From the NCBI RefSeq assembly GCF_932294415.1, contig NC_065536.1, positions 60,325,354-60,389,353 of the forward strand: a stretch of 64,000 nt of DNA, read 5' to 3'. Numbering within the stretch: position 1 is the first letter of the stretch; each line of letters begins with the position of its first letter. The notes under the pieces were generated by a model. It worked only from the letters and a program-made list of their open reading frames with translations, was not told the DNA's origin and searched no databases. The position numbers were made by a program, and so were the translations under genes. This document shows, in pieces, positions 3,913-45,385 of this stretch. The stretch is from Quercus robur. Lineage: Eukaryota > Streptophyta > Magnoliopsida > Fagales > Fagaceae.

Positions 3913-5364
3913 ATGGAAGATTTATCAAACCGCTGGAAGTCCCTCTCTCTATCTGAGAAGGAAGAATCCGGCCTGACCCTGAACTCCGACCAAGCCACGT
4001 CGGAGTTCTCCATGTTAGCCAGATTCCTAACTCGGCGTCCTATAAACTTGGACTCCATTGCAAATACGTTCAATCCCCTATGGAGGTCGAAGACGGGTTT
4101 CCGAATGAAGTTCATCGGAGATCACCTCATCCTCTTCTCTTTCGACTCCAAAGAGGAGGTTGACAGAATCCTTGCGGCTGAGCCATGGAGCTTTGACAAA
4201 AGCATCATGGTTCTGTCGAGGCATGAACATTCGAACCCAATCAATGCAGTAAACATGACCATGGTATCCTTCTGGGTGCAGGTGCACGATATCCCCATAC
4301 GTTTCCGTAACAGGGAGGTGGGGGAAAAAATCTGCGAGAACATTGGCATGATTATTCAAACTGAGAACCCACAGGAATGTGATGGTGGTAGTTTCATACG
4401 GATTCGTGTCAAGGTTAATATTGACCTCCCCCTATGCCGTGGTCGACTCATCACCCTGGATAACAACGAAGCACATTGGGTCTCGTTCAAGTACGAACGC
4501 CTCCCCAATCTTTGCTATTGGTGTGGCCGTCTCACCCACCCAGACAAAGATTGTGAGCGGTGGATTGATAGTGAGGGTACGCTCATCAAGGAAGTGCAAC
4601 ATTTTGGACCATGGCTGAAAGCTGCTCCCTTCACGGCGTCGAGGAAAGCCTTCCTTTCTGTTCCGGGCTTCTATGCCAGCAAGAAGACCGGAAAAAAAGG
4701 TCAGGAGCATGCTGGTTCAAGTCCCAAACAGCATGGCTCTCCTCTCTCGCCGGCGAGTGAAACACCACCAACTCTAGCAGCGGAAATTCAGGAGCCTGAA
4801 CTGCCAGCAAAAAGCCTGGCACACGACGTGAAGTTTACCTCGAACAGCCCCAAAAGCCAGCCAATTTCTGACACGGAAATATCGGAACCACCTTTTTCGG
4901 CACTCCCAACGAAATACGCTCCGCAGACAGATTTTGAGCAAATCATAGCTGACATAGATGAGGACATCCGTTGCTTTGACAATGTGGTTTCAGGAGATAC
5001 TAAACCAAACGAGCCCCTTTCGGGCCCAAGTCAACAAACTGGAAATGGGCCAAGCCCTGGAAAAGACTCTTCACAGAAAGCCCTCGCCTCACTCACAGAC
5101 CCCAGCCCTCTAAAGGACATCTCCAATCACCCCTCGGCCCAAGGTCCTTTGAATCTAGGAAACGAAAAACGGTGGCTTCGCATACAAAGGCCCACCCATC
5201 AACTAGGCGACGAAAATGCTGAAATCTCTTTAGGCAAACGTGGTGCTTTGCAAACCTCAGAAAACTCAAACTCCCAGAAGAGAAGAGCTGTGACAAAAGA
5301 TGCATCGGCAACCCCCCTACCCCAAACGGCGGCGGCTGGAAATCAGCCCCGCCGATCACGATGA
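3913..5364 (+). CDS. LINE ORF1 protein (DUF4283 and CCHC zinc knuckle)
   Basis: This is a 483-codon open frame and the first ORF of the LINE. ORF1 proteins of plant L1 elements bind the element RNA and form the ribonucleoprotein used in retrotransposition. Residues about 30-190 look like the DUF4283 domain common in plant LINE ORF1. A zinc knuckle of form C-x2-C-x4-H-x4-C lies at about residues 201-214 (CYWCGRLTHPDKDC). The C-terminal half is Pro/Ser-rich and ends in a basic stretch. It overlaps the start of ORF2 by 65 bases in another frame. The frame is intact, which suggests a fairly recent insertion. The start is the first ATG after a 5' leader of about 190 bases. Confidence 0.88.
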   Translation: MEDLSNRWKSLSLSEKEESGLTLNSDQATSEFSMLARFLTRRPINLDSIANTFNPLWRSKTGFRMKFIGDHLILFSFDSKEEVDRILAAEPWSFDKSIMVLSRHEHSNPINAVNMTMVSFWVQVHDIPIRFRNREVGEKICENIGMIIQTENPQECDGGSFIRIRVKVNIDLPLCRGRLITLDNNEAHWVSFKYERLPNLCYWCGRLTHPDKDCERWIDSEGTLIKEVQHFGPWLKAAPFTASRKAFLSVPGFYASKKTGKKGQEHAGSSPKQHGSPLSPASETPPTLAAEIQEPELPAKSLAHDVKFTSNSPKSQPISDTEISEPPFSALPTKYAPQTDFEQIIADIDEDIRCFDNVVSGDTKPNEPLSGPSQQTGNGPSPGKDSSQKALASLTDPSPLKDISNHPSAQGPLNLGNEKRWLRIQRPTHQLGDENAEISLGKRGALQTSENSNSQKRRAVTKDASATPLPQTAAAGNQPRRSR

Positions 5365-8300
5365 GTCTCCTATTCTCCTATTCTGGAACGTGCGTGGGCT
5401 TGGGAACCGGCGCACCGTTCAAGAGCTCGACCGGTACATTCGAGCACAAGATCCCACCGTCCTCTTCCTAGCCGAGACGTGGGCGGTTGAAGCTAGGCTG
5501 GTTACTTTGTGTACGGAACTAGGTTTTAACCACCATTGGATTTCGCCTCAGGTTAACCGTTTGGGGTGCCTTGCTCTGTTTTGGAAGAACACGGTCAAGA
5601 TTGAAGTTATCTCTTCCTCGCCGAACCATATCGACGCGGTGGTAGGGGACTCTCCTGACGGGTTATGGCGGCTCACGGGGATATATGGCTTCGCTGATCC
5701 GGCAAGGAAGAATGAAACGTGGGATTTGCTCCGTCACCTGCGGGCTAGACTCTCGCTTCCGTGGCTGGTAGCAGGGGATTTCAACGAAATTCTTTGGTCC
5801 CACGAAAAGTGTGGTTTGGGTCCGAGAGGAGAAGTCCAAATGAAAGCTTTTCGCGACGTGTTGGATGAGTCGGGGTTGAAGGATTTGGGCAAGAAATATA
5901 CTTGGAAAGGTCAGCGACACGGAGGCTTAGTGCTGGAAAGGCTGGACCGTGCCGTGGCAAACAACCGGTGGCTTTCACTAAATCCGGGAACAAAAGTCCA
6001 GCACCTACATTCAAATGCTTCGGATCACCAAGCCATTATAGTGAAACCTGAAGGTATCAATCCTACACCAAACCGCTCTTTTAAATTCGAACAAATGTGG
6101 CTTAGAGACAGAGGTTGTAGCAACACAGTCACTACTGCTTGGGGTCCGCCTATCTTGGGTGCCACAATGTCTGAAGTGGCGGGCAAAATTAAATTCTGTG
6201 GAGAAGAACTTACAATGTGGAGTAAAAACTGTTTTGGGAGTGTTAGGAAGCTTCTTGAGATGAAAAGGAAAAGCCTTGACAAAGCTGAGATAGCAGCAGC
6301 AAAAGGTGGGGACCAATTGCGAGTGAAATCGCTCCAAAAGGAAATAAATGGGCTGTTGGATAAGGAGAGCCAGATGTGGTAGCAGCGTTCTCGGGTTCTT
6401 TTTTTGAAATGCGGAGACAGAAATACAGCATATTTCCATACCAAGGCCTCCCAAAGATTCCGAAGAAATCGAATTACTGGATTGAGGAATAGCCAGAATG
6501 TTTGGTGTACTAACGAGAGTTAGATCAAGAACATCGCTTTTGAGTTCTATCAATCCCTTTTCACATCGTCTTCCCCTTCCAACTTTGAAGAAGTCCTCCA
6601 AAAGGTTCATCCCTCAGTCACGGGTGACATGAATGAAATGCTTCTCCGGGATTTCAAGAGGGAGGAAATAGAACTAGCCATGAAACAAATGGCCCCCATC
6701 ACTGCCCCGGGCCCAGACGACATGCCCCCGCTCTTCTTTCAGACTTTTTGGAGCACGGTGGGAGAGGATGTCTGCTCTGCCGTTCTTGACTGCTTGCAGA
6801 ACTGTAAGATTCCTACTAACATAAATCATACTCATATTGCTTTAATTCCTAAAGTAAAATCCCCTGAATGTATCTCTGAATACCGCCCCATAAGCTTATG
6901 TAGTGTGATTTATAAATTAGTGTCTAAGGTGCTTGCAAATAGACTCAGAACTATCCTCCCATCAATAATCTCAGAAAATCAAAGTGCGTTTCAGGCAGGT
7001 TGGGTGATTACAGATAATATCTTAATGGCTTTCGAAACGCTACACTACATGAAACATCACCAAGCAGGCAACTCTGGCTTCATGGCGCTGAAACTCGATA
7101 TGAGTAAAGCGTACGACCGCGTTGAATGGAAATACTTGGAACTAATGATGAAACGGATGGGTTTTGCGGATAGGTGGGTAGCCTTAATGATGGAATGCAT
7201 CTCATCGGTTAGCTATTCGATCCTTATCAATGGTGAATCCTCAGCCCCTATCCACCCCACTAGAGGCATTAGACAAGGAGACCCCCTCTCCCCGTATCTG
7301 TTTCTTTTTTGTACGGAAGGTCTCCATAGTTTGCTCCACCATGCGGCGGCCTCGGGCCAAATTAGAGGAGTCTCCATCTGTAGGAAAGGCCCCCGACTGA
7401 CCCACCTCTTCTTTGCCGACAATAGCCTGCTTTTCTGTAGATCCTCCATGGCGGAATGCCAAAAAATCCAAGATCTTTTGAACAGTTACGAGAATGCTTC
7501 AGGGCAGCAACTAAACGGATCAAAAACCTCTCTTTTCTTCAGCAAATCGACCACTCCGGAAGCCAAACATCAGATCACAAGCCATCTTGGGGCCCAAGAG
7601 GTCAACCAATACGAGAAATACCTCGGCTTGCCTACCCTAGTGGGCAGAAACAAAAAGGCCAGCCTAAGATTCATCAAGGAAAGGGTTTGGGCGAAGTTGC
7701 AAGGATGGAAGGAACAACTTCTTTCCCAAGCGGGTCGTGAGGTGCTGTTGAAAGCGATTGTCCAAGCTATACCAACCTTCGCCATGAGTTGTTTCAAGCT
7801 GCCCATTACTTTGTGCAGCGACATTGAACAGCTAATCCGGAAATTCTGGTGGGGCCAACGGGGGGCGCAAAGGAAAATCCATTGGTCAAAGTGGAGCAAC
7901 CTTTGCCTCCCAAAGGACCTTGGGGGTATGGGATTCAAGGATCTCCAAAAGTTTAACGACGCCATGTTGGCAAAGCAAGTGTGGAGGCTTTTAGAGGAAA
8001 AAAATTCGCTCTTCCATAGATTTTTCAAAGAAAAATTTTTTCCGAATGGGAATATCCTTGAGGCAAAGGATGGTGTGGGTTCCTTCGCTTGGAAAAGTAT
8101 CCTAAAAGGGCGGGAGGTCATAAAAAAGGGTGCCAACTGGAGGGTGGGCGATGGAGAAAATATTCGCATATTCCATGATAGGTGGCTGCCGGACCCTCAC
8201 TGTGCTAAGGTCCAATCCCCCCCATCTTTCCTTGGCAGCGATGCGCAGGTAGCAGTACTAATAGACAGAGATAGAAGCTGCTGGATTGAAGATGCTGTTG

Positions 8301-9451
8301 ATAATAACTTCTTTCCTTTGGAAGCCAAGTCAATCAAATCAATTCCTCTAAGTTTCTCCGTAGCTAAGGATCAGCTATATTGGCCGGGGCAGGTGGATGG
8401 GGTCTACTCTGTGAAAGCTGGGTACAGATTTTTGGTTGAGAACGAGCTACCATCTGCAGCAAGTCCCTCTGCCCCCCCGCATCAAAGAAGCACATGGAAG
8501 GGGCTTTGGAAACTCAAAATCCCAAACAGAATTAAAACTTTGCTGTGGCGGGCAGCCTCTGATGCCCTTCCGACTCGGCTCAACCTGATGAAGCGAAAAG
8601 TCTTAACTGATGCTACATGCCAACTTTGTGGTTCAATGTCGGAATCCTCTCTGCATGCTCTCTGGCTGTGCCCAAAACTGGGAATTGTCTGGGATGATCA
8701 CTTCGGTCCTCTTAGGAAAGATGCAAAGGATTGCACTAGTTTCCTGGAAATTATCCAGATATCTATGGAGAAAGGCCACCCCACGGATTTGGTTGCAATG
8801 ACCACATCGCTAATCTGGAATAGAAGGAATAGGCTCCGCCTAGGTGAATCTGTGCCGGACTTAAAACTCCTTCACTATATGGCAAGAGAAGCACTCCAGG
8901 AATTTCATCAAGCTCACATCTCGACACCTCCTCCCACTCTCATCCGAAGTCACACCAAGTGGGAACCACCCCCTTTGGATTGGGTAAAAATTAACTTTGA
9001 TGGCGCCACCTTTCAAGCGAAGGATGCTGCGGGGCTGGGCGTCATTATTCGCAACGACCATGGTCTAGTTATGGCTGCATTAACGCAAGTAATTCCACTA
9101 CCCACTTCGGTGGAGATGGTGGAAGTGTTGGCAGCAAGAAGAGCTCTTTCTTTTGCTCATGAGCTTGGGTTTGATCATATCATTTTGGAGGGCGACTCGG
9201 ACACAGCCATCTGTGCTATGAAGAATGGGAGCTTCTCTTCGGCAAGCTTTGGTCACATTCTTGCTGACATCAGGGTCCTTTCCTCCCATTTCAGGCATTT
9301 AGCTTTTAGGCATACCCGCAGGCAAGGAAACAAGGTAGCTCATAGCTTAGCAAGAGTTGCATGTAATTTCTTTCCCTTTTGTACATGGATCGAAGAAGTC
9401 CCTGATGTCTCTAATGTAGCCTATATGGATGAAGTTTTAATGAATTCTTAG
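5300..9451 (+). pseudogene. LINE ORF2 (endonuclease, reverse transcriptase, RNase H), disabled
   Basis: One reading frame runs from 5300 to 9451 and is broken only by two TAG stops, at 6380-6382 and 6521-6523, with no frameshift. In order it holds: an AP-type endonuclease (5380-6080, with the FWNVRGLG, AGDFNEI and SDHQAI motifs); a reverse transcriptase (about 6840-7800, with KLDMSKAYDRVEW and RQGDPLSPYLF); a zf-RVT zinc-binding region (about 8490-8680); and a C-terminal RNase H (about 8990-9380, with the NFDGA, EGDSD and NKVAHSLA motifs). The polymerase motif reads FADN at 7422-7433, where active enzymes have FADD, so a metal-binding Asp is lost. The stops fall between endonuclease and reverse transcriptase. 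The copy cannot make an active full-length protein unless both stops are read through, and even then the polymerase should be dead. Confidence 0.9.
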
Positions 9452-20716: not shown

Positions 20717-23700
20717 CTACACATTTCTCCGAATTTTCTTCTGTAGTTTATCCTGCTCTCGATATCTCTCCCGTCTTTCTTCTCTCCGGCGCTTTCTCGA
20801 CAACTCCTCATCTTTGGCTTTCTCTGCCTCATGTTCTTTCCTCTTCTTTTCTTCCTTAAGCTTTCGCTTCTTAATCTGCAAAAACCCAAGTTATGAAGTG
20901 AACATGATTTACTTTCAACATTGCTAGGAAAAATTGTCATTTCAAATGGCACTAATCAGTTCAGTTGCTTAAAGTGAATGCTGTTAAAATTCAGTTTTCC
21001 AATCAAAGAACAGTGACTTTCCAGCAGATTTTATCATCAACTATAACATTTACGCCTGGGTTTCAAAATGTCAACTAAATACAGTATTTCAGACTAAAAG
21101 ATCATACCTTTTCAGATCTAATCAATTGAAGATGTTGAACAAGAGCATGAACTTTTCGCTCATCAGGCTCCATGACAACAGCCGGTCTTCTATTTTCAAG
21201 AAGTGGACGTTTCCGACTAGGTGTATCCTTAGACTTTGTTGCAAACGGGAGAGATGCTTCCAAGGACTTGGGAATTACCAATGGGTTGAACTTCTTTGGC
21301 TTCCTTTCAATTGGCTGTTGATATAAAATAATAATTAAAAAGGATAGTAATACTGCAGTGATTTCAAGCCAGAATAAAGGAAGAAAACTATGGGCTAACA
21401 CAATTACTGCCTCACATCAGATCTGACCTTGTAGAATGAATCCTTGTTAACAGGAATGGCAAGATTGTGTTCTCTCCTCAATTCAGCGACAGTTTTCATT
21501 CCTTGCCAGGTCTGATCACGAGGTTGTAAGGCCGTTGTCAATGGGTTGTAGAAGCGAGGAACTTCAACTGAAGCCCATGCACGCATGAAAACAATGTCAC
21601 TCATCTTGATCTTATCCTCAAAGGTACACCTTGCAATCCCTTCTCTAGGTTTTCCTCCCTTCTTTTTTGGTTGGTTACCAAGCTCTTCTTTAGCAGCCTG
21701 CCAAAATAAAGTCATATTAAGTCCACCTTCAAGGGTATAACAACAGCCATGCTTTTACCTTCTTATATCCACATATTGCCCAGGCATCAACTATGAGGAG
21801 TGCAATTATATTATGATCTATAATCATTGCTACCGGGAAAACTTCCCAGTAGAAATTAATAGAGGTTCGCAATGCTTATTTTGAAGAGTATGACGCAAAA
21901 GGAGTAATACTTTTTTTCAGTTGATAAGTTATGCACCCAGTGGATAACTCATGACCTCACCCTCCACCTTCCATCTACAAGGAAAGGAGGTGCCATTTGA
22001 CATAGAGGCATAGAGCTCATTGGAGATGAGGCAAAAACACACAGTAAAAAGCATATGCAATTAGCACAATCTAAAAGCACAAGTCAGAATGAAAAATATG
22101 AATAAAAGTTCCTAATTAAAAGAGCATACCTTCTTAACCTGTCCCCGGATCCCACTGACAGTTCGAATAGCTGCACCTTCATATCGAGCTATTTCAAGAT
22201 CTGAATTAAACATTTCCTTGATAAGAGCTGTCTTCTTGAAGATCTTGGTGGGGTAACCAACCAGCTTGACTTTCTTTTTAATCTGAGCTGCATGATTAAA
22301 CTCCAACACAACTGCAGTTGCACTAATCCTAAATGTCGCCTGCCACACCAAACAAAAGCCGCTCAGGTATAGAGAAAATTTGAAAGTGAAAACAACAAAA
22401 GAAAAGTAGTACAAAGTATACTCCGGCCAAATTCTAATCACACTGACAAAGCAGAAAGGGATGCCTTAGTTTTAGATATTTTGGACTTTCATTTGGACAG
22501 GGTGGGTAGGACTTAGAATCTTCATTTTCACAAAGACCTTCATGATTGAGAATTGGAATTTGTATATTCTTTTCTTGACCATATCTATACTCAGGTGCCT
22601 AGGAGGGAGGAGGTTGACAGGATGAGGTTGCACTTGATTGGGAGGGCTACTTTTGATGTTCTATCTTTTTACAATAAAACTTTCACGGTATCAATGTTCA
22701 TTACATGTGCTCATCCATTTCCCTGGAAGAGTCTTTAGCATGTTAAGGCCCTCAGGAGGACATCTTTCCTCTTATGTACTGCAACCTGGGGAAAGATTAT
22801 CACTATTGATAACCTTATCAAGAGGGGATTGTATTAGTTGGATGGTGTTGTATGAGTCGTAGTGGGGAAACAGTGAATCACCTATTGCTCTGTTGTGATG
22901 TTGCTTAGGATTTATGGAGTGAAGTCTTTTAGATGTTTGGGATTCAGTGGGTAATGCCATCTACCGTAGCAGATCTACTATTTAGTTGGAAAAATTGGTT
23001 TGGGAAACACCTACTAATGCACAAGTACAAATACAGGTATTGGTACGATATGGGTATGGTTATGGGTACAAAGATACAACATTTTGAAAAGCCTAGGATA
23101 CGATACATCAGGAATACGGAAATTAATTAATTAATATTTATTTTTAGGTATATTTAAATATTTGTGTACATAATTTATATTTATTTTAAGTTTTAAAATT
23201 AAGTAACAATGAACAAGTGTGCAATAGTATATCACAGTGGCTAACCAACAAACAATACTATATTTATATCAATATATCACAGGCTCACAGGCCACAATAA
23301 TGCAATATATATCCTAATAAGCTCCAAAGTCAATAGGTCACTCAAGTCAAGACTCTTTTTCTTTTATAGGTAATAGATATTTCATTAAAAATAAGTACAT
23401 GTTCACGATGATGAACAGAGTACTAGGAACAAATACAAACAAATCAAACAGAAACAAAAACAGATTGCACAAAATAAAAAACGGAAATACATTGTGTAAA
23501 ACCCCAAATACGAGACCACCCAAACAAAGTCCCAACTAGCAAAGACTTCAACAAATCAGCAGATTTCTCAACATCCTCGAAACAAACAATATATAACATT
23601 ATTAAGGGCCCAAGGGCAGTAAGGCTGAAGCCCAGGCCACTGAGCAAGTGAGCAGGAAAACAAAAAAAGAAAAAAATTTGCGATTTGCAATTCCAATTCA

Positions 23701-25174
23701 GAACAAAGGCAAGGCAAGGCAAGGGAGAGAGAGTGAGAGTCTGAGAGACATATAGGCAGGAAGGGGGAGGAGGAGCTCCAGCATCGACAAACGACAAAGG
23801 CGAGGAAGAAAGAGTGGCGATCTATGGCTGGAAGTGGGACTTCATCACTTCAAACAGAAGCAGAGGCAGAGAACGAGAGTAGACTAGAGACTGATCTTAG
23901 AAAAATTAAGGCTTTTAACTCAGTTGGGCCAATCGACGATGGTAAATTTTCCAGGCGTCAAGATCTTCTCATTTTTCCTTCTCCCATGTCCGCTGGGTAC
24001 TCACCATATCTCGAACATGTCAAGCACGTATCCAAGCCGTATCTGAATTTTTTTTAAAATATTTTTTTTATTTAGCTTGATACTCTCTAGGTACAGACAG
24101 TTGTACCAGTATCCAAACCGTATCCGTATCGGTTACGTATCGGATACCGGCACAATGGCAAAATTGCCATATCCATGCATTATAGGGAAACACTATTCAA
24201 ATATTGGAATATTGTTCTAGCATGTTTCATGTAAATAGTGTGGAAGGAAAGGAATAATTGTATGAGGATGTTGAAAGATCTCTGGGTTATCTTCAACCCT
24301 TTTTCATTTGTACCTTGTTCGCCTAGTCTTAGGTTTGGATTTTTACTTTTTATGCATTCTACTTCCATTTTTTAGTTTCAAAACTCTCTTAGTTCTTCTA
24401 GTTGACTATTGTAACTTTTAAAGAATCTTTGTGTTCATCATCATGAACATATATTTCTTTTTTAGTAGATATAAAACTCATTACTCGTCAAAAAAAATAA
24501 CAATAATCTAGCCATGTAAAATTTCAGCATAACATTTTATATAATTCTCGAGCATTATAAAATTATGCCTATAATCAAAATGATATACATGGTTCAATCA
24601 AACAATAACAACAAAGCCTTAGTCCAAAAATTTTAGGGTCAGCTATGGATCCTCAACAAATTAGTCAGGGTAGACCAGATGTCCTTCTTTACTACCAATA
24701 ATGTTATTTCTTATCTTCATCTACCTTTTTCTGTTCCATTAATTTAAATCAACTCAATCTTTCTTACCGGTACATTAATGGCTCTCCTCTGAACATGATC
24801 AAACCATCTCAAGTAATTCTCCCTCATCTTTTCATCAATAGGGGTCACCCTTATCTTTGTGTATATTTTCTCATTTCAAATCCTATCTTTTCAAGTATTT
24901 CCACTAAGCTATCTTAACATTCTCATTTCAACTACACTTATTTTTTAAATATATTGCTTCTTAACAGCCCAACATTTAGTACCATGATCTTATAAGTCTT
25001 ATAAGATTTTCTCTTTAACGTATTCATGTCTTTTGATATGTTCATTCAAAATATATCCAAAAGGAATAGTAAATTTTCTTTTGATATCTACATAATAAAT
25101 TGTTTGTAGTACATATCATTTCCGTCAAAAATCAATCTGCTAATTTTTAATAATTCCTAGATTTTTTTTTAGCA

Positions 25175-25211
<37 letters not shown>

Positions 25212-28200
25212 CACCTAAGCATGCTTTGTGCTTCTTCAAAAAGTGCCAGCAAAGCCTGCCTAAGGTAGTTCCATTGGGCTTTAAGCTTTCAGCGCAGCTA
25301 AGTGCGCAGTTAACAACATTGGGTTTAACTACGTTTCTAGGCTCAAGCCTTGTGCAACTTGTTATTAGTTGAAAGTGGTGTGCACACAGTAAGGAGTGTC
25401 AGATATCAAGTTATTACACGTATCGCTAATTTGCTATTACCGGGATCCATTCTAAATTTGAGGCTCAAAAGCACCCCAGCGAATGCACAGGGCAGAGTTA
25501 AGCTTAATTTCAGACAAAAAAAGGCAAGTTTTGACGGTTTAGTCTCCTTTACAGGTTTTATGAGAGTGCACTGATTCGCATTAGCTATATTGAAATTACG
25601 AATATCACTGCTTCACACTTTTAGCACACCCAAAGCACTCCTGAGACAAATAAATAAAACCTCCCCCAGACTCTTAAAACTGGGTTTCAAGACTCACATC
25701 TGAAGAGCAAAATACAGGAGAGAAACTTTTTCTCTCTATTAATGTAAATTTCATTGATCTTTCATTCAAAATTGTCAAAAATATATGTAATTTTAAGTTG
25801 CTGATAATGTTCTATGCACTATGATTTGCACTGGATATATAATATCCAAAGTTTTTAATGGCATTTTTACACCCATATTGTTGTCATTAGGTAAAATATT
25901 GTGCATAAAAATTATCACTATGGCTTGATATAACAAAATTTCTGCATTATTCTGAGGTTTTTATATTCTTTAAACATCATTTATGGCACATGACACTGTT
26001 TCATCCAATGCCAACATATCGGAGCTTGTTGATAAATTCCCTTAGCTCATCATAGAATCACTATTCTGTTTAGGTTTTATTTCCCAGTGGAACCTACCAG
26101 ATGATCCACCCTGTAACATAAGTCCAACTCATCATTTTCTCCATTTTCATTTTTTAAAAACCAACACTTAAGTTTATATGAATTCAGGGATGGATAGCAA
26201 TGTTTTAGCCCCACTGTGTGCCATTAACAGGCCAAAATAAAAGTTTTAGATTTGTTGTTCAAACCAATTGCAAGACAGTTTTAAACCAAAATTTTTACAA
26301 GGAAAACTTGAGGGAACTTGCCCCATCTCAATCAGTAATTTTGTATGGACTGCTAAGAGATATGAAGGAGAGAAAAGGGGGAGAAATTCTGACCTGATTG
26401 TTTGATACATTCTGAACAGCAACCACGCCAGTATTAGGAGGGGCAAGAGGGCCCCAGAACGTGGCAAGGCAATGCATGTGTTCAGGAGTGTACTTAAGCA
26501 TTCGGTACCTTCCATTCAGATCCTCAATGGCATAAAGAGGTCTAGTTTGGTAACGTCTCCATCCAACTGAAACAATTATGGGATCTCTATTCTTCAGTAT
26601 TTTCTTGTGCCATCTGTGCTTCTTTAACCTGGTCTGGAAGAAAAGAAACGAAAGATCTTATGAGATCAAGAATTTTCCAGTAAGTTAAAACCAGAGAGTA
26701 ATCATCAAAGCTACAGAATAAGTGAACTCTTTTGATCTGATTGTCTGATTAAATTAAAGATTATCACCAAAAACATGATTTTATGATGAATTCACCATAA
26801 CGAGTCTTGATATTATCCTTTCTCAAGAGTTGGCCAGAACAACAGCTAAATTGATATCATCATAATTGTGGAACATGAATCATTTCCTTTATGTCGCAAT
26901 GTTTCATGTTGACAGAGAAGTTGCTTTTTGCTTAATGGCATTGGGAAATTATAACTTAATGACAGGTCATTCGCATTATACTTAAATACTAATTCAACAA
27001 CAATTTTCCCCATCAATAGAACCATTCTGCTGTGCCTAATACCTGTCCTACAAACAAGAAAAAAAAAATAGTTGAGCAAAAGCTCTAGTTTCAGAGGACA
27101 TGATGCAGTTGCATTTATGAGAACTAAGCGGCAGGCTCACCCAGTAGGGAGTCATAAAAACCTAGGAAATAGCAGAAGGAAAACTAACGGTATCATTCAG
27201 CATTGCAGAAGGACAAATTTAAGTCATGAGTGTATTCTACCTGCATATACCCAACATTTTCCTCCCCAAGTCCAATTCCTCCAACTAAAATAGGATGGCA
27301 GGGATCAAAATACTCAACCATCTCACAAGGAACATCATGAATCTCCAATCTCAAGTAAGTCCCTGTCCGAAAGCCCTCTATCTCGATTCGGGTGGCCTCA
27401 TCAAGATCATTGAGTTCAGATATATTCATTTGTTTACGGAGTTCAATCTCCTCCTTCATCTGCACAATGCAATCATGATTCACTCAATATCTTTACCAGT
27501 AGGCAACCATACTCCAAAAATAAGCCAGAAGAGATACCTTGTCAAAATAACCACTTTCATTTCTGTCTCTGTCCTTTGTATCAACTTCCTCATCTGGTGA
27601 TTCAGATCCGTTAAATGTAGATCATAATTAAGGTCACAAAAATCAATTTCATATTGCTTCTGTACATAAAACAGCAGATAGGGCAGAAAAAATTTGATTG
27701 CTGACCTAGGTTGCCATCTATGGCACATGAGCAAACAAGAAAAGAGAGGGAATAAAAAGATGGGGTGGCAATAGGATCACATAAAAAAGTATACTGAAAA
27801 TATAACAGTTCAAAAGGATATTGTGCATCAAATTTTGCACGGAGGGCAAGCTTCTTAAGCCTTCGCTCCTCAGCTGCTGGGTCATCTTCCATTTGGACTG
27901 CACCATTGCCAGTATCATCTGTTCGATGCCTCTCATTCTTCTCACCTGCTTCTAAATCTTCAAAGTCACCATAGACAGCGTCATCATCATCTTCAGCGTT
28001 GGCCTCTGGGTATTTATTTCTGCTTTTAGCCTTTTCCCAGTCACCAGTAACAAAACGATCACGAATACTCTGAATAAGCTCTTCATCTTTCCAATTTTTG
28101 AGAGTTTCATAATTTATGAATTTGCTACAGTCCTCAGAGTTGACATTTCCATCATCAAATCCTTCTCTCAGATTCTGCAACAGACCAAGAAACAGAGTGA

Positions 28201-31200
28201 ACACACAACATCTATTCCAGATATAAGGGTTGAGCATTCATATCAGTCTTCCTAAGGGCAGCTACAAACATGTCTGATGTTAGAAAGAACCTTGTTCTCC
28301 CAAAACTAATGAAAAAAAAAATTGAAAAAACTTTAAAAAAAAAGTGCCTGTTGCTCTAAGAAACAATAGACTCTAATGATGAAAGTAGTGTCAAGGATGA
28401 ACCTTTTTCCCCTCTCCTTTTGGCTTAAAGAATTCATCTCCATCACTTTCTTCATCACCACTACTATCTTGTGCTTCATCCATAGCCGTAGTAGATGCTG
28501 ACGTAGACTTCCCATATACAAGTTGCATAAGATTAGTATTCTGTCTGGAGACAGTCCTTTCCATTAAAGATTCTTTCCACTTTGAAATATTTCCCATGTC
28601 ATCTTCTATGAGAACAATTACAAATAAAAATTAGAAATAGAAGGATATGTTCATGAGGAAATTAGTCCAATTTAACAACTTACTACGGCACTGAATAAGC
28701 AATCGATGGAAAAAAACTTTTTGATATTAATCATTAACTTGAACTATATTCCACAACCATCTCATATTGGTTTCAAATGAAACATAATTCGAGAATCACA
28801 TTCATTTCTAAAGCAGGAGTACAATACTTCTTAATCACCGATAAGAGAAGAAGGCACAACACAGCATATTTACAAATAAGTAAAAAAAAATTACCATCTA
28901 TTTCATGATCCTCTCCATCTTCCTCCGAAAAATCTGAACCAGAGGATGTCTTATTGTCTGCATCATCATCACTGTCCTCATTCACTTCATCTGAATCCTA
29001 TAATTAAGTAATTGTAAAAAGCATGAGTATGGCTAACAGAACAGACAGATTGATGTTGCTAACAGAGCTAATATTTCCAACACTACTGCTCCCACACATC
29101 AATCAAAAAGGGAAGGAGAACAACCACTATATCTGTCATACAGATACGGTAGACATGATCCTCATACAAGCACTGAACTAAATAATGTGTAAAATCAATA
29201 GATGCATTGCAAAAATTCCAACCATAAAAATGCCATAAAAATATATAAGCAGAAGTTCTGTTATACATAGCATCACAACCAAGTAAAAGATATGATTTAG
29301 ATATGAAAAAAGAGAACCAAAAGAAAAAATATTTTCCATAACTACTATGGCAGTACAAGAATTCAAGTACAGTGCCGAACAGTGATTACCAGCATCATAG
29401 TACATGGAAGCATAAACAAGTATCTATGTGCTGTAAAAAAAAGGGTTTTCATAAATCCATTGTTCAACGCATAATGATTACCAGCATCATTTACCTTCAT
29501 GTCATCGTGATCAATGTCATCTCCAAAGAAAGCTTTTCGCCTTATTCTTCCATCATGGTACTCAACATGTTCCTGCAAATGATCTTTTAGAGAATTTTGC
29601 TGATCTAATGCATCATTATCTTCTTCAGAACCACTATCTTCACTTTTTATCATTCGCTCTTTTTGAACAGCTTCATCTTGATCTGAAGATTCTGAACCAT
29701 CCCGAACCCCACCATCACTTTCATCATTGGATTCATCAGTTTCAATTTCTTCCCCAGAATGATATCCCTCTGAAGGCTCTATTTCTCGAATCTGCTCCAC
29801 ACTTCCATGATTATCCTTGGCATGCTTCTGGCCGAAAAGGCTAATGAAGCTCTTTTCTAACTTCTCATCAATTGAGTACTTTGCTTTCTGAAGAGATTTA
29901 ACCAAAACCTCACCCACATCTTGGTCCTTTCCTGTTACGTCAATAATATGCCCAATTAATCCCCCCCAAAAAAAAAAACATGATGGCTGCAGCAAGGACT
30001 AGTGAAAATTTGCCTATTGCCTAATACATTATTTTTACCTAGGAAACCTTTTTTTTTCTTTTTTTTTTTAATAAAGTAAATGATCCATTTAAATACTTAA
30101 GGGTTTTTCCATTTTGACAAAACTCCCAGGGAACAATTTTCACCGAGGCAACATCATAAAGGTTTAATTACTAATCTGGTCCCTCAAATCTTGAACAATG
30201 TTCAATTGGGTCCCTCAACTAAAATTATGATAATTTCATCCCTCAACTTTCAAATTAAGTCAACTTCATCCTTGGGTCTCCTCTCCATTTAAACTTTAAT
30301 GGAACAAATAGTCAAAATTGACTTGACTTTGAATTTTTTACACTTATCATAATACTTTTGTAATATGTATGCTTTATTCCACACATTAGCTAATTTCCTA
30401 AAAATTTAAAGCAAGATGAGATCAAAAAGACGAAATGGATTTGATTTTGAAATTTCTGAGAAACTGGATTGACGCAATTGACAGTTGGGGGAATAACTTT
30501 GACACAATTTAAGAGTTGAAGGTGCAAATTAAACTTTATCCAATAGTTGAAGGATCAAATAGGTAATTTAAGCTTTTTTTTTTCTTTTTCGATACATAAG
30601 AAAGTAATATTATTGAAAAGAGAGAGAGAAAAAAGAATACAGGGTGTTCATGATAATGAACAAAGAACAGCACAAAAACAAAGAAACAAAGTAATTTAAG
30701 CTATTATATAATAGAGAATAACTAAAATGCATAAATGAAAATGGTCATTGAAATCAGAGAGATGTTCCATAACAAAAACAATGGATGGGTGGTCAAGAAA
30801 AGTGTAATGAAAGAGTACCATGAAATGAGCATAGAGATATTATTCACCAAGAAAACAGAACATGAAAGAATATAGAAAAAAGTGAAAACCTTTGTTTGTT
30901 TCTCCCCCATTTTCATCATCCGCTTTAGAAAACTGAACAAGGTGGTCATTTATGTTTATATAGACAGCATCCTTGTCATAGAGAAGGTCCCCAAGTCCAG
31001 ACATGGGTGCATGAAACAATTTTTCTTTATCACGCAGCCCTTTCTTCTTTGCAGCTGATGGTAAAGGACAAGGATCAGCTAATCCTGCAATGCCTGCTAA
31101 ACTGTAATCACCCACACCGGCAATATGCACCTGATTCACAAACAGTATATTAGATCACCAATATATAATTCGAGAAGAAATGCGAAAATAGCTTCTTATT

Positions 31201-33804
31201 CTTTTTTGGTAAGTTTACACATGCACCAGTGGGTTTTGAAGTTTGAACCCAAAACCTTACCCTCCACCCTTTCTTATGGGGGAAGGATGTGCCTTTTGAG
31301 CAAGAGCAAATTGACAGAAAGATGGCTTAATATATTGATCATAACTTTGAAACATTGGACCAAAGTGCTTAACCATATCTCATACCTAAGTGCATAAGTA
31401 CTACTCTCACTGCTTTCTTCTTCTTTTCCATAGGGTGGATACATACAAAAATTACATAACAAAGAGGGACAACAAGAGAAATCCAATATGATAGTGCAAT
31501 TTCAATAAATTACACTTGATTCAACACAGATTCAACTGTTTGGAGAGGGCTAACATTGCCTCACCCTTCACACTATGGATTGCATGGTAAAAATAAGAAA
31601 GCAAGCCCCTCATGTCCAAGATTTACTGATTTACACTTCTGTAAGATACATTAGTATTTTCTCTATGTAACATATAAGGCAACCACCAGTGATTTAACAT
31701 TTCAAGAAGGGAACAACCAGAACTCCAAAAGACCATCGCAGGGCTGCCAACTTCTTCCATTTAATTAAAAATTAACTAAATATCTATGTAATTTATATTC
31801 CAAATTGTAATTGGATAAATATTTTTGATAAATAATATTCCAAAATTGTGATTGGATAAATGATCTTAGAATACATACCTTAGTCCCCTTCTTCATATTA
31901 CAGCCTCGCAAATAACCATAAACAAGGACATTCCTATCACATTTTTTATTCATACGCACTCGCTCAGGAGGAGTGACATCTTCAAAACGGTCTACCAAAA
32001 TATAAGGGTGAGAAACACGCCAAGACAACGGATGAAATTTCATTACAGAAATAAACCGTGCCAGATTGTGAATTTCACGCTTGGGATACCTGTTCATTCA
32101 GGATGGAAATCACAGAAATATAAGCCTCATGAATTTTTTGTGTTTCAGTTAACATAGCAGCATATGTGTGTTTAATAACATAAGTAGCTAAAGAGCTACT
32201 TACTTCCCATGAATTAGGCCAGATAAATAAAACAATTTTGCTCCATCATATATTTCAGTCCAGAAACGATGCTTGAGACGCTGTTTTGTTTTCTTCAGTT
32301 TCTTTGCATCCTTGAACTTATCAAGGTTAGTAAGAACTCCCATAACCTTTGGGAACCCATGAACTTGCAATATGTTGAGGAATTCAAAGGTTTCCTGTAA
32401 AGGAATAACAATAATTAAATAACAGAATTCAAAATTGTAATTTTCTTATATATCAAACCAATAGAAAATGCAAACAACCTAACATAAATCCTTCAAGAGA
32501 GGGGGTGGGGGGGAGGATATATGTAAAAAAGAATAACAGACACTGAGCAGGCCCGATACCAAATTATCTGCAAGCCGAGCCAGTGCTAAATTGGCATACA
32601 AAAGCCCACAAGCTAAATTAACTTGACAGCTCAATTGAAATTAAATTGGCATTACTAAATTATCCATATATTCAAGTGGGTGTATTTACTAGGAAGCAAA
32701 AATTAACAAAATCTCACCATTTCAAGATTAGTGACCTATTGTTTGGTTGGAGGATTGGTCAGGTAAGCATTTGTCAGACTTTTGGAATTTAATCCCATTG
32801 TGTCTAACATGGACGGTTTGGCAGAAATGAAATCATCCTACATTCAAGAACACAGATATAGCAGGAACCCCATTGGTGGCTGCTTTGTTTTGTGGTTCTT
32901 TATTTGATTTGTCTAGAGCATGAGGACTAACTAGCACTATTTCCATCCCTAAATAAAAAATAAAATAAAAAACTCACTTATCAAAAAAAGACATCTCACC
33001 ATTTCAAAGCCATAACTTCCATCTATGAGAAGCAAAGCCAAATCGGCATACTTTGCGGCATCAATCATGCCATTTATATCATTCGGGCACTCCACAAACT
33101 GCAACCGCCTTTTCTTACCTAAACACATTCAATCAACCACTCAATGAATAAATCCATAACATTATCCTTTTTTTCTTCATTTAATTAACTATATAAGTTG
33201 ATAACAGAATACACAAATACAAACCTGATACAATGGTAATTGGGCCCCGAACCTCGGGCAAATTCTGCTTTGTATAATGCCTTACAAGAGACTTTATTAC
33301 CAGTGACTTCCCGACCTAATGTGACAACAAAAACATCATCTTCCCTAAGCTTCCAAACCACTATGAGCTACAAAAACAGCACAAAATACATAAACAGAAG
33401 AAAAAAAAAATTCAAATACCTGAGGAGGTCCTTGCACCACAATAACGAAAGGCGGAGGCTCACCATAAGTCCGATCGATCACCGGAACATGAAGCCTTCG
33501 CTGCTCTTTTTCCACAGTCCGTGACTGTAATCGCTTTGCCTTCACAGATGAACTAAAAGCAAATGCCTAGATACACACACAAACACACATATATAATAAT
33601 ATATTTGATGGGTTTGAAAAATTGTGAAAAAAAACAATGAAGATGATGATAATGGAATGGAATGGAAACCTTAGGGTTTTGCTTCCTGTCGCTGTCGGAA
33701 ACGTTCTTGTTCTTCTTATCGGACTTCGATTTTTTCTTCGGACCGGCCTGGCGAGACCGGTGAGACTTGTGGGACTGTTCGGTCTTGGTGCTATCCAAAG
33801 CCAT
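20717..33804 (-). CDS. BMS1: Ribosome biogenesis protein BMS1
   Basis: BMS1 is the GTPase-like factor of the nucleolar small-subunit processome. It acts with RCL1 in early pre-rRNA cleavage and 40S assembly. Eighteen exons join in frame to 1204 codons: 33804-33670, 33566-33420, 33315-33225, 33118-33000, 32394-32204, 32089-31879, 31130-30890, 29931-29495, 28997-28895, 28605-28403, 28174-27822, 27616-27538, 27459-27241, 26633-26394, 22339-22130, 21697-21428, 21314-21108, 20875-20717. The P-loop GPPQVGKS is at residues 91-98 and a TNLD motif (G4 position) at 186-189. An acidic Ser/Asp/Glu-rich centre spans about 330-640. The conserved C-terminal part runs from about 755, and the tail is very basic (KKRK...RRERYRE). 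All introns are GT-AG except intron 11, which is AT-AC. The frame stays open upstream to an ATG at 33966, but the chosen Met (A at -3, G at +4) starts the conserved part. The length fits the family. Confidence 0.96.
21905..22022 (-). mobile_element. SINE in a BMS1 intron, family copy 1
   Basis: On the minus strand it reads GGCACCTCCTTTCC, then GGTGGAGGGTGAGGTCATGA (B-box-like), then CACTGGGTGCATAACTTATC and an A-rich end. It shares this order with the copy at 31205-31312 and lies in the sense direction of BMS1, inside intron 15. Confidence 0.5.
23011..24184. mobile_element. Insertion with 9-bp target duplication, inside the LINE relic
   Basis: GGGAAACAC flanks both ends as a perfect 9-base duplication. 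The ends are weakly inverted (TAATGCA at both), and GATACGG-type repeats lie in inverse near both ends (23030-23110 and 24100-24170). A 9-base duplication fits the Mutator-like superfamily. It contains a piece of another LINE in inverse, and an open frame (23824-24057) that I do not recognise. No transposase is seen. Confidence 0.55.
23345..23600 (-). mobile_element. LINE 3' fragment nested in the insertion
   Basis: The minus strand reads [20 protein letters not shown], then GWSRIWGF, the usual C-terminal end of ORF2 in this LINE group. A 3' UTR-like stretch with GTTCATCATCGTGAAC follows. This is the third layer of nesting in the intron. Confidence 0.55.
24598..25020 (-). mobile_element. RTE-type LINE 3' relic
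   Basis: On the minus strand broken frames read [11 protein letters not shown], then VVEMRMLR, then [20 protein letters not shown] and RAIN. This is the well-known C-terminal region of plant RTE-clade reverse transcriptase ORFs. The 3' side ends in a TTGTTGTTATTG-type tail at about 24600, also typical of RTE. The 5' part is missing and there are several stops. Confidence 0.7.
25171..25210. repeat. Poly(A) run of about 32 bases
   Basis: A long A homopolymer within the large BMS1 intron, perhaps the tail of an old retroelement. No element could be assigned to it. Confidence 0.8.
27617..27821 (-). other. U12-type AT-AC intron of BMS1
   Basis: The intron starts ATATCCTTTT, a perfect U12 donor, and ends CTAC. 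CCTTAAT, a good match to the U12 branch site, has its branch A 11 bases before the end. Only this AT-AC boundary restores the BMS1 frame (KFDAQ then FNGSE). No GT-AG choice does so without breaking the conserved protein. The minor spliceosome should remove it. Confidence 0.92.
30161..30573. mobile_element. Non-autonomous TIR element in a BMS1 intron
   Basis: The left end GGTTTAATTACTAATCTGGT is mirrored by a right end whose reverse complement reads GCTTAAATTACCTATTTGAT. Both are followed by CC(C/T)TCAA(A/C)T. The interior is non-coding. No certain target duplication was found. It is probably MULE-like. Confidence 0.5.
30588..30700 (-). mobile_element. LINE 3'-tail fragment
   Basis: On the minus strand a GTTCATTATCATGAACA motif lies shortly before an end that resembles the LINE 3' fragments at 23345 and 24430. 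It is short and tentative. Confidence 0.35.
31205..31312 (-). mobile_element. SINE in a BMS1 intron, family copy 2
   Basis: On the minus strand an A-box-like head (GCTCAAAAGGCACATCC) is followed by GGTGGAGGGTAAGGTTTTGG and GGGTTCAAAC (B-box-like), then CACTGGTGCATGTGTAAAC and ACCAAAAAAG. It has the same order as the copy at 21905-22022. Confidence 0.55.
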
Positions 33805-36599: not shown

Positions 36600-37420
36600 T
36601 CATCAAGTTTTTTTTTTTATAAGTAATGAAAGTTTTTGTTAAAGAAAGCACTAACCGAGTACACTGGGGTGTACTCAGGGGGAAGTTTAATCAAAGAAGT
36701 TTATTACTTATCAAAAGTATCAGTTAGCTAGCTATGCTGAAATCATAAGGTTGGGGCCTAAATCCTATCAAATCTCAAGAAAGGTCTGACCAACTTCTTG
36801 AGCTTCATGATTTTCCTCCACCTCCATGTGCTATCTTGAAGAATTTTCACAATCCAGAAACTCGAACCAAAGTTATTGATCGCCTTTTAAGCTTCACATG
36901 GGTGTCTAAGGTCTAAAGGTTGATGCCCATAGGTGTCTCTAGCATTCTAAACAGACTGTTTTTATAATGATTGAAAAAAGTGAAATTAACAGACTATATT
37001 GAAGTTTTTTGTTAATTTTTTCTTTTGGACAGAAAGCAACCATATTAATGTTTTATAATTTGTTGATATCATTTTTAGTCCTGTAATTTGCAAATTACAA
37101 TATCTCTATTCTCCTTCCATTTATTTGTTTTTAGTAATAAGCATGCTACCATCTGTATGGAATTGAATTAATATTTGAAATGCATGTCTCAAAGCATGTT
37201 TCTATATGATGAACATTTCCATCTCTGCTGTATAGAACATGCACTATAGCTGTTGTAATTTGTGTGGTTGTCCAGATTTTAGCATTAAGTAATTATTAGT
37301 CCTGCAGGTGATGGACTGATGAGTAAGCCTTTTTGGCGTGGTTCTTCTACATGGAGGAGAGCCACTGCAGCATTAACAAAGGATCCTCAAACTTTGTTTT
37401 GATGGGTTTCTCTGACAGAC
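36600..37420 (+). other. Upstream region of the PPR gene
   Basis: It contains a palindromic element piece at 36610-36715 (TTATAAGTAATGAAAG mirrored by TTATTACTTATCAAAAG). A possible 5' UTR splice acceptor, CTGCAG, lies at about 37303-37308. A possible first non-coding exon lies at about 35990-36085 and ends in a CAAG|GTGCC donor. These 5' UTR calls are guesses. Confidence 0.35.
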
Positions 37421-39676
37421 ATGAACAGGTGCTCCATCTTCTTCTCAGACCATTGTTTTCGACTCTTCTCTCATCGGTCACACTTGGGTTTTGCTTCAAA
37501 TTATTTGCCTCTCTTGTGTCTAAGAAGATTTCTGAGCCAGGGACATTCCATCTCAGGCTCAACTGATGCCAGACCTTTTCCTGATTATTCCCCCAAAAAA
37601 CCAACCATCAGAGACTCTGAATTTGTACATCAGATCTCAACAGTAATAAAACTACGCCGCTCTGAGCCTCTCCGCCGCATTCTAAAGCCTTATGAATCCA
37701 AGTTCAGGCCTGACCACCTAATTTGGGTTCTCATGGACATTAAGAATGACTATAAACTGGTTTTGGATTTTTTTGACTGGGTGTGCCTACGGAGAGACCC
37801 AACACTAGAAGCCCGTTGTATTGTTGTTCAAATTGCAGTGGCATCAAAGGATCTAAAATTGGCTCATGAGCTTATTCGTGAGTTTTGGGCAAAACCCAAT
37901 TTAGACATTGGTCTTTCATACTCTCATTTTGTTGACAGGTTGATATACACTTATAAGGACTGGAGTTCAGAGCCCTATGTATTTGATATTTTCTTTCAAG
38001 TCCTTGTTGAAGCTGGATTGTTCAATGAAGCAAGGAAATTCTTTGACAAACTGTCGAATTATGGGTTGATTCTCTCTGTTAAATCTTGTAATCTATTACT
38101 TACTTGTCTCTCAAACAATTCTGATGGGATTGAGATGGCAATAAAGGTTTTCAATGAATATCCTGAATCGGGTGTTTGTTGGAACACTGCATCATATAAT
38201 ATCATTATTCACTCCCTTTGTCAATTAGGGAAGATAAAAGAAGCCCATAATTTACTTGTGCAAATGGAGTTGAGGGGTTTAATGCCTGATGTAGTAAGTT
38301 ATGGTACTATCATAAGTGGTTATTGTCATCTTGGCGAACTGAAGAAGGTTTTGAAACTTATTGAGGAAATGCAAACAAAGGGATTGAAGTCAAACCCCTA
38401 CACCTACAACAGTATAATACTTCTTCTGTGTAAGGCTGGTAAAGCAGTTGAAGCAGAGAAGGTATTCAGGGAGATGATGAACAAGGGCATTTTTCCAGAT
38501 AATGTGGTATACACAACTCTTGTTGATGGTTTCTGCAAGTTGGGTAATGTTCCAACTGCATATAGGCTGCTTGATGAAATGAAGGCTAGGAAAATTGTTC
38601 CTGATTGTATAACATATACAGCTATTATTCATGGGTTTTGCCAGACTGGAAAAATGATGGAAGCAGTTAAACTGTTCCGTGAAATGATTAGTGGAGGGTT
38701 GGAACCTGATGAATTTACTTACACAGCGCTTATTGATGGTTATTGCAAGGCAGGTGAGATGAAAGAGGCCTTTGCTCTTCACAACCAAATGGTTCAGACA
38801 GGGATTACCCCAAATGTTGTCACTTACACTGCACTTGCTGATGGCCTTTGTAAAAGAGGTGAGGTAGACACTGCACATGAGCTTCTTCATGAGATGTGTG
38901 AAAAGGGCCTTCAACTTAATGTATGCACTTACAACTCAATTGTTAATGGTCTTTGTAAAGCTGGAAATCTAGTGCAAGCAGTAAAGCTGATGAAGGAAAT
39001 GGAGACGGCAGGGTTCCATCCTGATACTATTACTTATACCACTCTCATGGACGCTTATTGTAAGATGGGGGAGATGGCTAAGGCGCATGAGCTTCTGCGG
39101 GAGATGCTGGATAAAGGTCTTCAACCTACAATTGTCACATTCAATGTGCTCATGAACGGGTTTTGTATGTCAGGAATGTTGGACGATGGTGAGAGGCTAC
39201 TAAAATGGATGTTGGAGAAGGGCATAATGCCAAATGCGACCACCTATAATTCTCTTATGAAGCATTACTGCATTAGAAATAATATGCGTGCCACAACTGA
39301 GATTTACAAGTGCATGTCTGTGCAAGGAGTGATGCCTGATAGCAACACTTATAACATTCTAATAAAGGGGCATTGCAAAGCAAGGAATATGAAAGAAGCT
39401 TGGTTTTTGCACAGGGAGGTGGTTGAGAAGGGATTTGATCTCACAGCTAGTTCCTACAATTCCCTTATCAGAGGTTTTTATAAGAGGAAGAAATTTATGG
39501 AGGCTAGGGAACTTTTTGAAGAGATGAGAAAACAAGGATTGACTGCAGAGAAAGATATATACAACATTTTTGTCGATATGAACTTTGAAGAAGGGAACAT
39601 GGAAATCACTCTTGAGCTTTGTGATGAGGCAATAGAGAAATGTCTAGTGGATAAAGTTATGAATGAAAAGACATAG
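37421..39676 (+). CDS. P-class pentatricopeptide repeat protein, likely mitochondrial
   Basis: P-class PPR proteins bind single-stranded organelle RNA and influence its stability, splicing or translation. This 751-codon single-exon frame begins with an Arg/Ser-rich, acid-poor N terminus (residues 1-50), which looks like an organelle presequence. A non-repeat region follows (about 60-185). Then come two less regular PPRs and 14 consecutive exact 35-residue P motifs at 256-745. There is no E, DYW, SMR or LAGLIDADG domain. The protein resembles Arabidopsis At1g05670 (from memory). The first ATG in the frame was used, and the presequence supports it. The code residues 5 and 35 are mostly canonical (N/D, T/D, T/N). 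Confidence 0.95.
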   Translation: MNRCSIFFSDHCFRLFSHRSHLGFASNYLPLLCLRRFLSQGHSISGSTDARPFPDYSPKKPTIRDSEFVHQISTVIKLRRSEPLRRILKPYESKFRPDHLIWVLMDIKNDYKLVLDFFDWVCLRRDPTLEARCIVVQIAVASKDLKLAHELIREFWAKPNLDIGLSYSHFVDRLIYTYKDWSSEPYVFDIFFQVLVEAGLFNEARKFFDKLSNYGLILSVKSCNLLLTCLSNNSDGIEMAIKVFNEYPESGVCWNTASYNIIIHSLCQLGKIKEAHNLLVQMELRGLMPDVVSYGTIISGYCHLGELKKVLKLIEEMQTKGLKSNPYTYNSIILLLCKAGKAVEAEKVFREMMNKGIFPDNVVYTTLVDGFCKLGNVPTAYRLLDEMKARKIVPDCITYTAIIHGFCQTGKMMEAVKLFREMISGGLEPDEFTYTALIDGYCKAGEMKEAFALHNQMVQTGITPNVVTYTALADGLCKRGEVDTAHELLHEMCEKGLQLNVCTYNSIVNGLCKAGNLVQAVKLMKEMETAGFHPDTITYTTLMDAYCKMGEMAKAHELLREMLDKGLQPTIVTFNVLMNGFCMSGMLDDGERLLKWMLEKGIMPNATTYNSLMKHYCIRNNMRATTEIYKCMSVQGVMPDSNTYNILIKGHCKARNMKEAWFLHREVVEKGFDLTASSYNSLIRGFYKRKKFMEARELFEEMRKQGLTAEKDIYNIFVDMNFEEGNMEITLELCDEAIEKCLVDKVMNEKT

Positions 39677-43067: not shown

Positions 43068-45385
43068 TTAGTTCATGATAATTTAGATATATTGATAAGA
43101 ATCAGGATATGCAGTAAAAATTCTAAGATGGCAAGAACAAGCTAAGCTACACATTCAACAGTTCTATGCCATTAATGCTCACTTGGTAAGTTATCAATGT
43201 CAAGCCTTAAAATCTTTCCGAGCAAGGATTTTTTGTTTTGGGAAAAATCGTAAGGATCATCTCTGATTGCACCATCTCCCACCATAACATATAAATATCC
43301 ATCTGCAGGTCCAAATAGAATCTGGCCCCCATGATTAAATGCCATTGGAAGCCCCAGTGTAAAAATCCTTCTCACTTCTGATGGGCTAGCACTTTGTTCC
43401 TGGAAATTGATAAGGATGTAATTTAGCAAAAACCCATAAGAAAAATTTATGCTATAGTCAAGCTAAAAAGGTATAGATGTTTACTGAGGAAGGTTTTGAT
43501 ATAGTCCCATTAGCAGTGAACTCTGCAATAACTATATGATACCGGCATGGTGGAGTTGCATTAGAAGAACTTAGCTTTGAAGGATCACAGTTCGCATCTG
43601 TGTTACAAGCACACCTACCAGAACATCCTGGTGTCCTGATCTTATCACAATTGAACGAAGCAAAGAAACGACCATTATGCGCAAAGTTTGGATGAAAAAC
43701 CATACCCATCATCCCAAAGCTACTGTCAAAAAAGACTCTATCAGTCAAATCTATAAAGGGCCTGGACACATCAAGTCCTAGAGTACCTCCTGAACTTTGC
43801 TCAGGTATTGTGGCCAACCAAATTTTGCCTGCTTGGTTAGAGAAGAATGCGCGATTAGACCCATCAGGATGTGCAACCATATTGAGATAAGACCCATTGC
43901 CAATTTTCTCAAGGCACAAGCCCTTTGGCAGAACCAAAGTTTCAGACTTCTCTAGGGAAACTTGTTCACCATCAAAACATATTGAACCATCATAAGAGGA
44001 ACCACCAAATGCATCACAGAAAACACTCTTGGACTGCACCAGTTGGTTTAGTTTGGAAGAACCAGAATCAGCTGGTACTACATTACTACCTTGTAGTAAA
44101 GAGGCAAAAGGGGAACTCAATATAGACACATTCTGGCATGCATCCCAGACAGTAGAGCAAAAACTACTTGCTGCGCTGTTCGACTGTGATGAGTTTACCA
44201 ATAGAGTGGAGCTACAAAGAACAGGAACTTCTCGAGGTCCTGATTCAACCTTAAATAACTGAGCTGAGAACTGATCACACATCTGCAAATAATAAAATTT
44301 CCAAATTTCATAACTTTCTGAGTACTAAAATGTTGTCATTTTTGTACTTAGCACTTATAGTAGCTCAAAAAGTAGATTAAGATAGCCCACATTTCTATAC
44401 ATTGCTGTGCATTATCTCTAATACATTATACTGGGTAAATCCAAAACCTTCTTTATAAGGACAACAAAAATAATAAGAAAATAATAGAGTATGTGTCACT
44501 CTTCACATAAATTGCCAACGAATCCATCTGTTTGTGTGCACATTTCATGCTCATCACTTCAGATTCCAAACAATGTAAAACGATGGTGTTTCAAAAATAT
44601 AAAATAAACTTGAGCATAATTTACATCCATAGCAACATGTAGAGAACATATTTCATGACCTCAGGGAGCAGTCAGCCTAGACAAATTCCACTTCCATACC
44701 AGTACAAAAACCAGCCTCTACAAGCACTTGTCCCATAAATTTAAGCTGTTAGATAATGGTAACTCTCACATGAGATAAAATGGTTACGAAGTTCATACTC
44801 ATAATCACCTACTTTAATATGGTAATACCATAATAAACTATCACATGTCTCAAAAGCTAAAGTTATTAAGAAATTATGCATTTAATCATTTAACCATTAT
44901 TATAACATCAAAATGGAGGATTTTTTTTCATATGTTAAGCTACTGTTCTTTGAGGTTTACAACCAACACTCGGTGGATTTTGAACAGTTCAAACGAAGCT
45001 GTCATTATAATAGAGTTGACAAGGCCTTACCGCACAAAGTATTGATTTCATAAGAGCAGCACAGCCAGAATCAGAGATATTCATTGCATGAAATTGCTTC
45101 TGCAGCTGCAGGTCTTTGGCTGAGTCACAACACACACTTCCATTGTATGGACAAAAGACCAATGGTGTCTTTGAAATGAGAGGTGCCCCTATGCCAGTCA
45201 AAACAAAGAAAGGCTATTTAGCAAAGACATTATTAACCCAAAAACATAAACCACATGAACTAAACTGAAATGTGAGAGAGAAGGAGAGAAGTACTTAAAT
45301 CAGTGCATAAAGGAAGTGAAGAAGAAGGTTGATGAAGTAGTAGGTAGTGATACAACAAAAAGAGGATAGTAACAAAAGCTTTCAT
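41814..45385 (-). CDS. HIPL1: HIPL1-like glucose/sorbosone dehydrogenase-domain protein
   Basis: This family (Hedgehog-interacting-protein-like) is secreted and anchored at the plant cell surface. It carries a Cys-rich N-terminal domain and a beta-propeller of the glucose/sorbosone dehydrogenase fold, and the substrate in plants is uncertain. Seven exons join in frame to 689 codons: 45385-45295, 45188-45031, 44282-43485, 43399-43183, 42841-42663, 42521-42280, 42198-41814. Residues 1 to about 25 form a signal peptide. The Cys-rich domain starts LCTDLRAPL and carries FCPYNGSVCC. The propeller part includes MVAHPDGSNRAFFSNQ, FGMMGMVFHPNF, VMVGDG and LWALGLRNPWRCSFD. The last 20 residues are hydrophobic (LCLSFFLSSMLYIVI), which fits a GPI-anchor signal. 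The length is near that of Arabidopsis HIPL1 (from memory, about 695). All introns are GT-AG. Confidence 0.94.
43032..43065. repeat. (CA)n microsatellite in a HIPL1 intron
   Basis: An AC dinucleotide run of about 32 bases lies in the intron between exons 4 and 5. Confidence 0.9.

Follow-up and report, generated by a model that had tools for sequence, protein, structure and literature searches.

The 64-kb stretch of Quercus robur DNA analysed here, referred to below as the window, carries on its minus strand a complete coding gene for BMS1 (33804-20717) with 18 exons and a product of 1204 aa. The exon boundaries were picked by hand from the reading frame and the GT-AG splice signals, without a gene predictor, and in the resulting gene model the coding sequence is free of stops and of frame breaks. 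Sixteen of its 17 introns have GT-AG ends and the remaining one, intron 11, has AT-AC ends (Table 1). A preliminary description of the locus had numbered the neighbours of this intron as exons 11 and 12, in agreement with the 18-exon model, and had given no strand; the intron lies on the minus strand. The longest intron of the gene is intron 14 (26393-22340, minus strand) with 4054 nt, the next longest having 958 nt, and it contains a run of 35 T on the gene strand (25176-25210).

The protein is matched in Pfam by RIBIOP_C (289.5 bits) and AARP2CN (92 bits), in addition to two weak G-domain matches of 27.8 and 24.9 bits, the latter under its cut-off. Its best relatives among solved structures are the BMS1 chains of 7mq9 (1001.5 bits, E=5.5e-300), 5oql (785.8 bits) and 5jpq (746.3 bits), which we take to be the human, Chaetomium and yeast entries of the SSU processome. 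The 1001.5 bits compare with 88.1 bits for the TSR1 chain of 6g18, which identifies the protein as BMS1 and not as TSR1. In these domains, in the weak G-domain match and in the long matches to BMS1 chains, it resembles the SSU processome GTPase BMS1, for which At1g06720 is the Arabidopsis locus; the portion of PMC4140647 that we consulted lists At1g06720 as a protein with a BMS1 domain that takes part in ribosome biogenesis. An extra BMS1 copy in the window was considered and rejected, as all 16 tblastn pieces listed at E<=1e-3 map to this same gene. No relatives of the protein were found in viral contigs, nor of its C-terminal 434 residues in prokaryote contigs, as expected of collections without plants.

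Table 1. Features of the BMS1 locus bearing on intron 11 (positions in the window).
Feature	Position	Strand	Basis or remark
BMS1 gene, coding part, 18 exons	20717..33804	-	gene model, Pfam, BMS1 chain match
Exon 11, 353 nt, ends ...LRAKFDAQ, codon phase 2	27822..28174	-	gene model
Predicted intron 11, AT-AC, U12-type, 205 nt, phase 2	27617..27821	-	sequence, gene model, U12 scoring
U12-type 5' splice site ATATCCTTTT	27812..27821	-	9/9 to ATATCCTTT
U12-type branch site ACCTTAAT, branch A 27628	27627..27634	-	6/8 to TCCTTAAC
3' splice site TAC (CTAC)	27617..27619	-	sequence, gene model
TAA stop met if intron 11 is kept	27611..27613	-	stop lies 73 nt upstream of the exon 12/13 junction
Exon 12, 79 nt, ends ...GYFDK	27538..27616	-	gene model
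GT-AG rival with the highest site score (CAG|GTGAGA ... CACCAG), in frame, -49 aa	27594..27945	-	site score 14.0

The reading frames require an intron between exons 11 and 12, and one of a frame-shifting length, since the frame of exon 11 stays open through all of intron 11 and stops at 27613-27611, and the frame of exon 12 is closed just upstream by TAA and TGA. On the minus strand, intron 11 starts with ATATCCTTTT and ends with GACCTTAATTATGATCTAC, its flanks being GATGCACA on the side of exon 11 and ATTTAACGG on the other. When the two exons are joined across 27821-27617 the frame is kept without a stop, leading from FDAQ into FNGSES.

U12-type introns have the donor consensus RTATCCTTT and the branch-site consensus TCCTTAAC, and these letters were used for scoring. 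The donor of intron 11 agrees with the consensus at all nine positions, and no other intron among the remaining 16 of the gene exceeds 7/9. Its branch site departs from the consensus at two of the eight positions; a branch site of 6/8 is found as well in the GT-AG intron 17, the donor of which scores 6/9, and we counted this against the U12 reading of intron 11. The last base of the intron follows the branch A at a distance of 11 nt, within the published optimum of 11-13 nt. The AT-AC intron in BMS1 put forward in the preliminary description was thus recovered with its donor, its branch distance, its CTAC acceptor and its frame. That the remaining exons are intact and the other introns GT-AG was counted in favour of the AT-AC reading. 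Intron 12, with the donor GTATCTCTT, was tried as a U12-type intron and discarded (donor 7/9, branch site 4/8). A weak polypyrimidine tract was likewise given up as a mark of intron 11: the 20 bases ahead of its last three hold 12 pyrimidines, inside the range of 9-18 for the 16 GT-AG introns of the gene, so that pyrimidine content separates no classes here.

Taken alone, the set of U12 motifs means little in a window of this size. Simulated 64-kb windows contain on average 0.79 cases of the strict combination, in which a ATATCCTT donor, a CCTTAAY branch site and a YAC end all fall within 3 kb, and 44% of the 300 simulated windows had at least one. We therefore rejected the window-wide significance of the motif set by itself. 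In fact, the branch site of intron 11 also combines with a second matching donor, which is located in intron 9 at 28648. At the one junction where an intron is required, simulated 70-nt stretches (200,000 trials, frame not imposed) gave much lower figures: the donor appeared in 0.20% and the branch site with YAC in 0.23%, the product being about 5e-6, and joint matches were 0 in 200,000.

The claim that only this choice of ends joins the two conserved halves of the protein in frame did not hold. Considering donors from 28044 on, introns of at least 50 nt and GT-AG, GC-AG, AT-AC, AT-AG or GT-AC ends, we enumerated 299 in-frame, stop-free pairs (106 AT-AG, 63 AT-AC, 62 GC-AG, 43 GT-AG and 25 GT-AC). 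By U12 score the pair 27821-27617 is at the top of all 299 with 15/17, followed at 14/17 by the GT-AC pair 27794 to 27617, which uses the same branch site. For 17 of the 299 products, including 10 of the 43 from GT-AG pairs, we obtained Pfam scores against PF04950, a domain whose match starts just upstream of the junction. The product of 27821-27617 scored highest (155.2 bits), and two others gave 154.9 bits each, those of 27819 to 27594 (AT-AG) and 27819 to 27597 (AT-AC), both of which rank below the top 12 by U12 score; the ten GT-AG products ranged from 144.1 to 149.3 bits and the remaining four from 149.1 to 152.1. The product of 27821-27617 stands only 0.3 bits above the next two, a difference that carries no weight, and 6 to 11 bits above the GT-AG products. 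We also summed global alignments of the products, 298 of them distinct, to the corresponding segments of human, Chaetomium and yeast Bms1. With a sum of 653, against a best of 670, the product of 27821-27617 is at rank 14 of 298, so this homology sum does not discriminate within the linker, and human and fungal homology was dropped as proof of the junction. The best GC-AG pair by this measure, 27826 to 27589, reaches 662, with 149.1 bits for PF04950.

The GT-AG pairs were judged by a splice-site score for which the 16 GT-AG introns of the gene itself, scored leave-one-out, give 2.7 to 22.3 with a median of 11.1. Six of the 43 pairs reach at least 2.7, all of them ending at 27594, and their donors 27945, 27969, 27705, 28044, 27903 and 27726 have homology sums of 460, 421, 583, 373, 538 and 590, respectively, compared with 653. 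A major-class intron from 27945 to 27594 would cost the protein 49 residues of its acidic linker, and its in-frame CAG|GTGAGA donor and CACCAG acceptor score above the median of the gene. We nevertheless hold its use very unlikely: it removes the LRAKFDAQ stretch, the start of which is common to fungal Bms1 (LRAKF of exon 11 aligns with LRARF in Chaetomium, and yeast has LRAQF in the same stretch), its homology sum has rank 237 of 298, it gives 147.0 bits for PF04950 against 155.2, and it does not account for the full set of U12 signals. The number of GT-AG pairs in frame and stop-free leaves room for another of them, for example 27705 to 27594 with a site score of 10.4, but this one would put a hydrophobic run into the acidic linker and yields 145.1 bits for PF04950, and 27794 to 27569, the GT-AG pair with the highest homology sum (647, rank 19), fits the protein but has a site score of -6.6; such a choice appears even less probable. 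Least credible is that the AT-AC intron is real but is spliced by the major spliceosome, like the few known U2-type AT-AC introns. AT-AC ends are not confined to U12 introns, according to the parts of PMC3584512 and PMC8280824 we consulted, and they make up 0-0.05% of the U2 introns of four plants (PMC7367187); intron 11, however, has the full U12 donor and a branch site at 11 nt.

With a 9/9 donor, a branch site at 11 nt, a CTAC end, a kept frame and the top PF04950 score of 17, the U12 reading is the best one, and it is further supported by the published criteria for the donor, the branch site and the 11-13 nt optimum, which intron 11 fits (PMC3584512, consulted in part, where mixed AT-AG and GT-AC ends are disfavoured). 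Judging from the sequence, we consider it highly likely that intron 11 of Quercus robur BMS1 belongs to the U12-type (minor) introns and to their AT-AC subtype; its AT-AC splicing is a prediction, and the intron is very probably real. The join of exons 11 and 12 given here is thus the likely one for this gene.

The intron is an ordinary example of a well-known class, to which it adds a new member. AT-AC introns were described as rare even among minor introns, and they are indeed a minority of U12 introns; the extreme rarity did not stand, as they make up 23% in soybean, 26% in Arabidopsis, 13% in maize and 22% in rice (PMC7367187, Table 2), the database of that work holding 269 Arabidopsis U12 introns. 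Like the AT-AC U12 introns known from these plants (IAOD, U12DB, ERISdb), intron 11 has the ATATCCTTT donor, a branch site of the CCTTAAY type with a YAC end 11 nt away, and a host gene for RNA processing in which a single minor intron stands beside many major ones; we saw no difference of kind, and its branch site has two departures from the consensus. We found no paper linking BMS1 with U12-type or minor introns in a search outside of which lie most subscription journals and all supplements; BMS1 has no mention in the main texts of PMC4892727, PMC2426677, PMC7367187, PMC6865273, PMC10639083, PMC2831892 and PMC8280824, and the introns of At1g06720 are not treated in the portions of PMC4140647 and PMC12386182 that we consulted.

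From what is known of the class, U11 and later U6atac would pair with the ATATCCTTT donor, and U12 would pair with CCTTAAT, bulging the branch A at 27628. Cleavage would then be expected where the first YAC follows that A, at a distance of 11 nt, and would bring FDAQ and FNGSES together across a phase 2 junction; the other 16 introns would be removed by the major spliceosome. A dependence of BMS1 on the minor spliceosome, also proposed in the preliminary description, would follow from the class. Factors acting on such introns have been described, at least in the sections consulted of the respective papers: human CENATAC promotes the splicing of AT-AN minor introns (PMC8280824), and Arabidopsis DROL1 mutants have defects in AT-AC U12 introns (PMC11039992). 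In the embryonic mouse retina, highly expressed genes with minor introns are mainly of RNA processing, ribosome biogenesis and the cell cycle (PMC6865273, in part). With BMS1, a gene of ribosome assembly would join the set expected to be affected when minor-spliceosome or AT-AC-specific factors are lost.

Since the stop met upon retention stands 73 nt ahead of the next junction, a message with intron 11 unspliced should be non-productive and is likely a target of nonsense-mediated decay. It is conceivable, although doubtful, that the intron acts as a throttle, such that at lower minor-spliceosome capacity no full-length BMS1 would be made and the output of small subunits would be tied to the minor spliceosome. 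The mis-annotation of exons 11 and 12 by a GT-AG-only predictor, another claim of the earlier description, is plausible because the pair 27945 to 27594 outscores the median intron of the gene; gene finders of this kind may pick it and lose 49 residues.

Elsewhere in the window, the plus strand carries at 3880-9448 a retrotransposon in pieces, probably of LINE type, with matches to DUF4283 and a zinc knuckle, to an endonuclease family and to a reverse transcriptase with an RVT_3 end. An open frame of 288 codons at 43461-44324 on the minus strand has no Pfam match at E<=0.001. On the plus strand lie a pentatricopeptide repeat protein at 37403-39673, in an open frame of 757 codons from stop to stop, and at 50726-50796 a tRNA, the sole Rfam match at gathering score within the 64 kb.
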